This document shows positions 27,430-33,689 of a stretch of 33,689 bases of DNA, one piece after another (the first letter of the stretch is position 1; every line of letters starts with the position of its first letter). The stretch comes from Ammonifex sp. (GTDB lineage: Bacteria > Bacillota > Desulfotomaculia > Desulfotomaculales > DYER01), in the NCBI GenBank assembly GCA_020725605.1, contig DYER01000108.1, positions 1 to 33,689 on the forward strand, written 5' to 3'. Under the pieces are notes generated by a model. The model had not been told where the DNA came from and searched no databases. It saw only the letters and a program-made list of their open reading frames with translations. Made by a program: the position numbers and the translations under genes.

Positions 27430-29041
<1,612 letters not shown>

Positions 29042-29045
<4 letters not shown>

Positions 29046-30717: not shown

Positions 30718-30816
30718 GCCCCTCTGCAGCCTCCGCGCAACGGGCCGTGTTAGGATGGGACGTGGGGCAAGTGTCGGCAGGGCGGACCTTTGGTTTGGGG
30801 GAGGGGTGTCGTAGCC

Positions 30817-31827
30817 GTGGCCGGACGCCGGCAACTGGAGCGCATCATGGAAATCGACCGTCAGATCCGGGCCGGGAAGTACCCGAACGCCCGGCAGCTG
30901 GCCGCGGACCTGGAGGTCAGCGAACGCACCATCTACCAGGATCGGGAGTTCCTTCTCGAGCGCCTGGGCGCCCCTTTGGCCTACGACCGTCAACGCGGCG
31001 GTTGGTATTACACCGATCCCACCTGGGTACTGCCCTCGGTAATGGTGACCGAGGGCGAGTTGCTGGCCTTTTTCCTGAGCGTGGAGGTGGCCCGGCGCTA
31101 CCTGGGCACCGCCTTCGAAGCCCCGTTGCGCTCGGCCGTGGCCAAGATCACCGCTGGCTTGAAGGAACAGGTGGCGGTGGACCTGGAAGAACTCCGGTCC
31201 GCCTACGCCTTTGCCACCCCGCCCACGGTGGCCGTGAAGGAACAGCTTCTCCTGGGCCTGCACCGTGCCATTCGGGAGCGGCGCCAGGTACGGATGCACT
31301 ACTACACGGCCAGTCGGGATTGCTGGCAGACCCGGGTGGTGGAGCCTTACTACCTTTACAACCTCAGGGGTGACTGGTACCTCATTGCCTTCGACCACTT
31401 CCGCCGCCAAATGCGCGTTTTTCAAACCGGCCGGGTGGACTGGTGGGAGGTGCTGCCGGAGGGCTTCGAGCGCGACCCGAACTTCTCCGTGGAGGAGTGG
31501 TTGGCCCGCGCCTTTCAGGCCGAGCGCGGCGAGGAGGAGGTGGAGGTGGCGATCAGATTTGACGCCTACCAGGCCCGCTACATCCGCGAGCGACGCTGGC
31601 ACGCTACCCAGCAAATAGAAGAGCTGCCGGACGGCGGCCTGATCCTGCGCTTCCGCACCGGGGGTCTGGCCGAGGTCCGGCGCTGGGTGATGGGGTACGG
31701 GAGCCACGCCGAGGTACTCGCTCCGGAAGAACTGCGGCGGGAAGTGGCGGCCGAGGCCCGGGCCGTGGCGCGCCTGCACGCGAGGAGAAGGAAGCCAAGG
31801 AAGCCTTCCTCCCTTTCCCAAGGGTGA
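30817..31827 (+). CDS. HTH-WYL domain transcriptional regulator
   Basis: The 336-residue protein starts with an HTH_11/DeoR-like winged helix (residues about 5-55; LAADLEVSERTIYQDREFLLERLG). A linker region follows, then the WYL domain. The domain's signature tripeptide is in GDWYLIAFDH, and basic residues HYYTASRDCWQTRVVEPYYLY match the ligand-binding face. A C-terminal WCX-like domain (about 240-310) follows. WYL proteins are common regulators in CRISPR and phage-defence loci and are thought to sense nucleic-acid ligands or nucleotides. The GTG at 30817 has GGGGGAGGGG upstream. It sits between cas4 and csa1, suggesting control of the adaptation genes or the array. The 250 bp to csa1 hold no gene. 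Confidence 0.9.
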   Translation: MAGRRQLERIMEIDRQIRAGKYPNARQLAADLEVSERTIYQDREFLLERLGAPLAYDRQRGGWYYTDPTWVLPSVMVTEGELLAFFLSVEVARRYLGTAFEAPLRSAVAKITAGLKEQVAVDLEELRSAYAFATPPTVAVKEQLLLGLHRAIRERRQVRMHYYTASRDCWQTRVVEPYYLYNLRGDWYLIAFDHFRRQMRVFQTGRVDWWEVLPEGFERDPNFSVEEWLARAFQAERGEEEVEVAIRFDAYQARYIRERRWHATQQIEELPDGGLILRFRTGGLAEVRRWVMGYGSHAEVLAPEELRREVAAEARAVARLHARRRKPRKPSSLSQG

Positions 31828-32086
31828 GGAGGGACGCGGGGCCCCCTTATATGGTAGCCATTGCCGGGTCCCGGGGCACTCCGTCGGCGGTATCGCGAAG
31901 GGGGACACCGTTGAGGCGGCGGTGCCGCCGGCGTGGGAGGCGGACCAGGTGGCCCGGCGTCGGCGAGGCGGGGTGCGCGGGACTTGCCTACCGGGAAGCG
32001 AGCCGGGCACCCGGCCCCCGAGGCGGGAGGGACCTGTATGACGCGAAGCCGAGGCACGGGCGATTACGCCACCGGGGGTGGAAAAC

Positions 32087-33004
32087 GTGTATTTTTTGAA
32101 CGAGGAAGAAAGGAGACACCTGCTCAAGAGGCTGCTACCGAAATCGCGGGAACTTGAAGTGGCCGAGGAGCTCCGCGGCTGGAACTGGCATACGGCCCCC
32201 CTCGAGCCGCCGTACGGCTGCCGGCTGGCCCTCTACGAGGTTGCCAGTTCATACTGCCCTACTAACCGCGACCTCTTCCTGCGGCGGGTGGCCAGGGTGC
32301 GCGTCAAGCCCAACGTGGCCATGGTGAGGGGCTCGGCCCTCCACGCCGCGCTCGTTCACGTCCTGGTCGCGGCCAAGCGCCTCATATACCAGTACGGCGT
32401 GGAGCGGTACACGGAAATCTGCCGCGAGCTTCAGGCCCTTGATCCACCGTCCCTTTCGGGGGCCGTACGCGACCTGGCCCCGGAGGAGCAGGCGGACGTG
32501 GCCCAGAAGATGGCACTCCTTACGGAGTTCGAAAAGGCACGGATCGTGGCGCGCATACAGGAAGTCCTGGTCAAGCACCCCTATATCGGAGAGGACTCCC
32601 TGGCCAATCTGGCCCTACCCCTGGTGCTGGAGCAAAAACTCGACGGCAGCTTACTGGGCCTGAGCCAGAACCTCAGTGCCGACGCCATGATCGCCTTCGA
32701 ACCCATGATCATGGACCTCAAGTTCGGCGAACCCCGCGATTTCCATTACCTCACCACCACGGGCTACGCCCTGGTCATGGAGGCCGTGTACGAATACCCC
32801 GTGAACCTGGGGTGCCTGGTCTACGTGGAATTCCGGGACCGGCGCATTATCGTCCGGCGCGACCTGCACATCATAGGCGACGAACTCCGCCAGTGGTTCA
32901 TTGAGACCCGCGACGAGAAGGCCCGACTGGTGGAAGAGGAAATAGACCCCGGGGTGGCCGAGGATTGTCACCCGACATGCCCTTACTTCCGGGTCTGTCA
33001 CTAA
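32087..33004 (+). CDS. csa1: Cas4-family protein Csa1 (Cas4-2 type)
   Basis: Csa1 is a diverged Cas4 relative found mainly in type I-A and some I-B loci. In Pyrococcus, Cas4-1 and Cas4-2 together define PAM, length and orientation of new spacers. The 305-residue product has the start YFLNEEERRHLLKRLLP, an N-terminal Cys (C57, SSYCPTN), acidic residues E182 and D199, and the D210-x-K212 pair in MDLKFGE. The C-terminal cluster C294, C298, C304 (DCHPTCPYFRVC) completes an Fe-S site. I chose the GTG at 32087 because GGGGGTGG lies 5 bases upstream; GTG 32078 is possible but has no spaced ribosome site. It is the last protein gene before the leader and array. Confidence 0.88.
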   Translation: MYFLNEEERRHLLKRLLPKSRELEVAEELRGWNWHTAPLEPPYGCRLALYEVASSYCPTNRDLFLRRVARVRVKPNVAMVRGSALHAALVHVLVAAKRLIYQYGVERYTEICRELQALDPPSLSGAVRDLAPEEQADVAQKMALLTEFEKARIVARIQEVLVKHPYIGEDSLANLALPLVLEQKLDGSLLGLSQNLSADAMIAFEPMIMDLKFGEPRDFHYLTTTGYALVMEAVYEYPVNLGCLVYVEFRDRRIIVRRDLHIIGDELRQWFIETRDEKARLVEEEIDPGVAEDCHPTCPYFRVCH

Positions 33005-33035
33005 TATAAACCAAGGAGCCTGTGTCCCAGTTAGT

Positions 33036-33193
33036 CGTCTCCAGGTTGAGTACCTGAAGACGGTATGTCATTAATGAGTGTGAACCCTGCTGGAGCATGG
33101 GCGTCGTGAGCCGACATCGCAGGTACAGGGATCGGCACCGAAGTGCTATCCGGCCCAACTGGTGAGGGTCAGGACCCGACAGTTGATGCTCAC
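33036..33193 (+). ncRNA. Candidate structured RNA in the leader
   Basis: Three stem-loops lie in a row. 33036-33062 is an 11-bp stem with one mismatch and loop TGAGT. GCCGA and TCGGC pair near 33112-33146. 33156-33185 has nested stems CAACTG/CAGTTG and GGGTC/GACCC. GAGCAT and ATGCTC (about 33093 and 33187) enclose the last two. Such order (a 5' hairpin followed by loops) recalls IS110-type bridge RNAs, but no recombinase is present. It is unidentified. Confidence 0.35.
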
Positions 33194-33464
33194 AGAACCT
33201 TGCCTGGAGAGGAGAAGCATAACCGGGGCTATGGCTACGGTCGGAGGCCCATGCGCCGGCCGGTTGCCTGCGGCCGAAGCTTTCGCAAATCACCAGGCGA
33301 GGCCGCAATACGCATGCCTGGGCGGACCGAGCCTGGTTCCCGCCGACCGGGGTCGAGTCGGCAGAATATGTGGTTTTTAGGGTCAACCACCGATTTCGCA
33401 AATGAAAGGGGGTTCAGATCCGATGGGCCTCCTTCGAAGCAGACACCTCGCAACTCCCAGACCT

Positions 33465-33486
33465 CGACGCCCCAAAACAGGCGTCG
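33465..33486 (+). promoter_or_regulatory. Hairpin close to the first CRISPR repeat
   Basis: A perfect 7-bp inverted repeat (CGACGCC / GGCGTCG) with an 8-base loop rich in A ends 31 bp before the first repeat. It may be a leader element read by the adaptation complex or a small RNA hairpin. There is no T tract. Confidence 0.4.
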
Positions 33487-33517
33487 CTACTGGATCTCCG
33501 CCCAAGCCCAACCTTCT

Positions 33518-33689
33518 GTTGCACCACTAGACCCGATGAAAAGGGAACTGAAAGCCTGGATCAGATGCACTTCGTCAAAGGACTGGATGTTGTTGCACCA
33601 CTAGACCCGATGAAAAGGGAACTGAAAGTTTTATAGGGAACCGCAATGCGGCGTACCCGCCAGGAGTTGCACCACTAGACCCGATGAAA
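33518..33689 (+). CRISPR. CRISPR array, first repeats (runs off the window)
   Basis: Two complete identical 37-bp repeats (33518-33554 and 33592-33628) and the first 24 bp of a third (33666-33689) are separated by two 37-bp unique spacers (33555-33591 and 33629-33665). The repeat begins GTTGCACCACTAG and ends GGGAACTGAAAG. Cas6 would be expected to leave ACTGAAAG as the 5' tag. A short CCC...GGG stem is possible inside the repeat. Orientation matches the cas genes, with the leader at the left, so these are the newest spacers. The ending resembles type I-A/I-B/III repeats. Confidence 0.98.

Follow-up and report, generated by a model that had tools for sequence, protein, structure and literature searches.

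The leader surveys of Santiago-Frangos 2021 and Kieper 2019 are said to describe conserved, phased motifs in CRISPR leaders. Type I-E and I-F leaders that depend on IHF have sites at set distances where bound protein bends the DNA for Cas1-Cas2. One account assigns dependence on IHF to types I-E and I-F, and describes for the type I-A system of Sulfolobus islandicus a leader-distal motif (-143 to -94) that is bound by Csa3a and whose mutation lowers adaptation, together with binding of Cas1 to the leader-proximal end (PMC9456107). The same account raises as an open question the means by which Cas1-Cas2 locates the leader-repeat junction in systems that have no known bending factor (PMC9456107).

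The locus analysed here is the DNA between csa1 and the CRISPR array at the end of the window, the term used for the whole stretch of 33,689 nucleotides. The segment probably consists of lineage-specific filler followed by a type I-B (cas4 plus csa1) leader with putative protein-bound dyads, a reading to which we give a probability of roughly 0.7.

The array leader and sites A and B

The genes upstream of the array encode a type I-B system (Cas8b, Cas7b, Cas5b, Cas3b, Cas1, Cas2 and Cas4, plus Csa1). The features at the end of the window are as follows.

32078-33004, + strand: csa1 (Cas4-family adaptation nuclease), the final cas gene before the array; PF06023 E 2.5e-77, TIGR01896 E 2.1e-63, above cut-off
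33518-33554, + strand: CRISPR repeat 1, 37 nt
33592-33628, + strand: CRISPR repeat 2, identical to repeat 1
33666-33689, + strand: CRISPR repeat 3, cut off by the contig end
33555-33591 and 33629-33665: two 37-nt spacers

The contig stops within the array. With as many as 3 mismatches allowed, the assembly yielded no further copy of the repeat, and neither spacer core had an exact match among viral contigs. The csa1 stop at 33004 and the start of repeat 1 at 33518 leave 513 nt of intergenic DNA, ending at 33517; the preliminary description had placed its segment correctly between csa1 and the array and had given it too short an extent, 460 bp. A WYL/WCX regulator gene lies between cas4 and csa1 (window 30790-31827); cas4 and csa1 adjoin each other in most of the 76 other csa1 loci. 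A Card1-like CARF-PDDEXK nuclease (window 28106-29042) appears split across two overlapping frames (CARF part 28106-28429, nuclease part 28398-29045), through a frameshift or sequencing error.

As the segment had no sequence homologue, csa1-to-repeat intervals were compared by position instead. The gene was present in 26 of the 113 genomes of the order, 51 loci were added from a second genome-contig set, and csa1 loci were read from the end of the gene to the first repeat. No array was detected by script at 8/26 loci of the 113-genome set and 20/50 loci of the second contig set; L110, with a partial csa1, was left out of the array script, and L036, with its repeat near the contig end, was added by hand. 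Loci L061, L062, L063, L069, L070, L071, L073, L075, L077 and L078 of the second set were dropped, their contigs being judged by length to be the same as those of loci in the first set. L066 was dropped as well: its contig also gave L034, its first repeat lay 2,724 nt away and runs of N were present. The features of the array-proximal part of the interval are given below.

33392-33517, + strand: conserved region, near certainly the CRISPR leader; ungapped match to relatives at a fixed distance from repeat 1
33394-33403, + strand: site A, TTTCGCAAAT, at -124
33432-33439, + strand: site B, CTTCGAAG, at -86; spacing as in relatives
33465-33486: leader-proximal inverted repeat CGACGCC/GGCGTCG, -53 to -32; not consistently common to relatives

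Firmicutes arrays behind cas4-csa1 carried two sites ahead of repeat 1, TTTCGCAAA (site A) at a distance of about 123 bp and TTTCGAAAA or TTTGCGAAA (site B) at one of about 85 bp. When relatives were counted back ungapped from repeat 1, TTTTCGCAAAA was found at about -123, GCAGAAAA at about -97 and TTTTCGAAAAA or TTTGCGAAA at about -85, and gapless alignment of 38 csa1-linked leaders from repeat 1 gave A and B at fixed distances, which hold even among distantly related bacteria. Pelotomaculum propionicicum is a cultivated relative with an A/B leader. In the window exactly 30 nt separated TTCGCAAA from TTCGAA (TTCGCAAA-N30-TTCGAA), the same as in relatives. With A and B in place, 33392-33517 is near certain to be the leader of the array; it immediately precedes repeat 1 and is conserved with arrays having related repeats. 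A matrix of A plus B, built without the window, L067, L089, L102, L106 and L108, gave the top score of the whole window at 33392 (14.6), with next scores of 9.2 on the + strand and 11.4 on the - strand. The window has neither GCAGAAAA between A and B nor GGTC(G/T) before repeat 1, both of which are present in most relatives. In 15 of the 50 leaders a strict dyad regular expression matched neither A nor B, indicating that the motif varies. A hairpin common to the leader-proximal ends was rejected, the last 75 nt giving an empty consensus fold (energy 0; L050, L089, L106 and L108 left out) and a strong inverted repeat occurring in some leaders only.

The pattern TTCGCARA-N30-TKCGAA was found in 23 of the 113 genomes of the order, with 39 strand-hits compared to 10 for the reversed control. 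Reading of 27 of the 31 pattern places revealed 24 that precede repeats and 3 that do not; at 18 of the 27 the array begins, by script, 119-123 bp downstream. At L126 the repeat lay near the contig end, and at L134 the A-B pair stood 98 bp before an array built on a different repeat (GTTGCAGTCCCC...CTGAGAC), compared to the usual distance of about 122 bp. Four places (L115, L116, L120 and L124) had complete A-B leaders followed, by eye, by one partly truncated repeat, and may be remnants of lost arrays. In the phylum the pattern occurred in 28 of 398 genomes, where 8 of 25 newly read places preceded repeats, some by eye, and 17 did not. At L155 (genome G259) five A-B pattern places lie within about 16 kb, possibly belonging to several arrays.

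Site C and the proposed folding of the leader

A further site in the window repeats the sequence of site A.

33281-33290, + strand: site C, TTTCGCAAAT, at -237; distal site of the leader

The strict dyad expression was run over -520 to -1 of 50 leaders, 38 linked to csa1 and 12 taken from the A+B pattern, and matched only at about -123, about -85 and -241 to -222. Site C occupied the last of these intervals in 12 of the 50, with no dyad elsewhere in -520 to -140, and was missing from the other 38. The leaders with C were those of the window (L038), L035, L036, L040, L041, L045, L054, L055, L067, L100, L127 and L137; L040, L041, L045 and L055 form one family and L127 and L137 come from one genome, so that the 12 leaders represent about 8 lineages. 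The same 12 were recovered when the analysis was rerun without 3 near-identical leaders (47 loci). Dinucleotide shuffles of the upstream DNA (n=200) placed a dyad in the -246 to -220 bin at a mean of 0.1 loci and a maximum of 2, and anywhere at 1.2 loci. Among csa1-linked leaders, C was present in 10 of the 21 whose gap was at least 230 nt and in 0 of the 17 with a shorter gap, where its position would fall within csa1; in L041, L045 and L055 it begins 0-2 nt past the csa1 stop. No C was found in 8 extra leaders from the phylum sample. The placement of site C is non-random, and the leader thereby has an additional distal site whose position is fixed. The preliminary description had offered a regulatory leader as one option for the segment, and this holds for 33392-33517 and probably from 33281 on.

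Judged from the sequence, A, B and C are most likely the binding sites of a dimeric protein by which the leader is folded to allow spacer integration, array transcription or both; we infer every step beyond the conserved, positioned dyads. One DNA-binding protein would occupy each dyad as a dimer, with A and B acting as a pair and C bound cooperatively across about 112 bp. The bound sites would bend or loop the leader, allowing Cas1-Cas2 with Cas4/Csa1 to integrate spacers at the leader-repeat junction, and the same complex might drive array transcription, a role proposed by analogy since the leader gave no sigma-70-like promoter match. We suggest tentatively, at less than even odds, that in many Firmicutes type I-B (cas4-csa1) arrays the leader is folded by a putative dyad-binding protein, and that a subset including the window adds the third site about 112 bp out and so makes a long-range loop.

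The dyad symmetry, distance and repetition of the sites would also suit operators of a regulator that governs array transcription alone, with no role in integration. This is a possible but not a favoured reading: the fixed distance to the repeat suits integration as well, and no exact TTTCGCAAA occurs at the cas promoters of the window, where the only other exact copy lies in the cas1 coding region. The candidate regulators were also found wanting, as a relative of the WYL regulator was present at just one of the 76 further csa1 loci read (several of which are the same contig twice) and Csa3 exceeded its curated cut-off in 0 of 113 genomes, the window's own incomplete assembly included, so that neither explains the sites. 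Weak Csa3 matches, present in 112/113 genomes and in 14/14 control genomes, were taken as general HTH proteins.

Site C might instead be the relic of an old leader whose array has decayed, the present leader having been copied in downstream. In favour of this origin, a degenerate repeat lies, by eye, about 80 nt past C and ahead of A in L040, and L086, L087 and L094 have a second A-B-like pair farther upstream; it is nevertheless unlikely, because the C-to-A distance is kept in lineages with no visible relic repeat and the window shows neither a repeat relic nor a second B 40 nt past C. No tandem duplication of the leader was seen in the window. The degenerate repeat of L040 lies just 5' of A, as if a leader copy had been inserted behind an older repeat, and in L086, L087 and L094 a TTGACA-like sequence precedes the second pair (by eye).

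The DNA between csa1 and the leader

Upstream of the putative protein-bound leader the interval contains the following features.

33005-33280: lineage-specific DNA between csa1 and the leader, holding the hairpins described earlier; no similarity found elsewhere
33036-33062: hairpin CGTCTCCAGGTTGAGTACCTGAAGACG, 32 nt past the csa1 stop; stem of 5+5 bp with one mismatch, 5-nt loop
33156-33185: CAACTG..CAGTTG hairpin
33093-33191: possible multi-arm fold, enclosed by GAGCAT (33093-33098) and ATGCTC (33186-33191)

Both hairpins and the enclosing pair lie exactly where the preliminary description had located them. Its account of the segment as structured is borne out by the hairpin at 33036-33062, which alone among the hairpins is unusual against background, but not by the overall structure, which is not exceptional. 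Folding of the 460 nt gave a z of -1.38 on the + strand, with 9 of 100 shuffles as good, and of -3.0 on the - strand, with 0 of 100 as good. Compared with a background of 330 windows of 100 nt (25 shuffles each), the 100-nt windows over the first hairpin were the most outstanding, with a - strand z of about -4.6 and 0.6% of the background as low. The enclosing fold at 33091-33192 gave a z of -1.8 (20 shuffles), and the multi-arm fold at 33093-33191 is little better than shuffled sequence. The segment had also been called GC-rich, which is incorrect for this genome (58.9% compared to 65.8% in the window).

Hairpins directly 3' of csa1 were also found in L036, L047, L050 and L102, and the hairpin at 33036-33062 is probably a 3'-end hairpin of the csa1 mRNA, which it would terminate or protect. 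The Csa1 of L036 is the nearest to that of the window among those aligned (69%), and its csa1-to-array interval of 535 nt carries A, B and C, with a short piece resembling the start of cas10 lying 5' of C (weak, E 8.5e-4). As this interval is also long, extended filler ahead of a leader is present at other csa1 loci too and does not have to serve a function.

Covariance-model searches against Rfam, proposed with the original suggestion of a non-coding RNA, gave no family at gathering score and two chance-level matches only at E <=10, and a tRNA/tmRNA search of the segment found none. Homologues of the segment were absent from plasmids, phages, the 398 phylum genomes and the 113-genome class sample, sets without a member of the organism's own family, except for a 22-nt exact match in genome G096 that lies inside surE and was taken as chance; the other csa1 loci had no similarity to 33005-33280. 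The suggestion of a non-coding RNA gained no support from the Rfam and homologue results. The alternative of an IS110 end with a bridge-RNA-like fold was rejected: a search of the genome, whose assembly is about 85% complete, gave no second copy of the segment, there is no adjoining transposase and no transposase fragment in any frame, and the sole PF01548 (IS110-type transposase) match in the genome sits on another contig, C51. A group II intron was rejected, with no Rfam catalytic domains in the segment and no RVT_1 reverse transcriptase in the genome. The absence of a credible gene was confirmed by six-frame pieces with no significant match in Pfam or PHROGs; a protein remnant was rejected on the same searches, the DUF779 match (E 0.29) being chance. 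The segment has the appearance of neither a new RNA gene nor the end of a transposon, and although the first hairpin, its low - strand z and the nested arms are real, it is very improbable that 33005-33392 is a structured non-coding RNA or IS110 bridge-RNA-like element beside the array, given a single genome copy with no Rfam match, class or phylum relative or transposase remnant, and the z of the multi-arm fold.

Comparison with described leaders

To our knowledge a fixed leader site as far out as C is unusual. No paper on the A/B/C motif was recognised in the literature search, and as the main leader-motif survey was outside its reach no claim is made that the motif itself is new. If the folding reading is true, the strategy of these arrays would be IHF-like, with another architect protein and an unusually distant fixed site. 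A fixed-spacing motif common to many cas4-csa1 arrays could serve directly as bait for the factor, and long-range leader folding could be tested cleanly on site C; the A-B pattern also detects orphan leaders with one leftover repeat.

The leader resembles the IHF-dependent leaders of types I-E and I-F in having sites at set distances, where a protein would bind and bend the DNA, and differs from them in its motif, a TTTCG(C/A)AAA dyad. Compared with the type I-A system of S. islandicus, the system here is bacterial and type I-B, has a third site at about -235 and shows no Csa3 above cut-off in the order. The two are alike in that the adaptation module contains csa1 in both, and the distal motif of S. 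islandicus, at -143 to -94, overlaps the A/B interval of the present leader, a comparison by distance rather than as the same motif.
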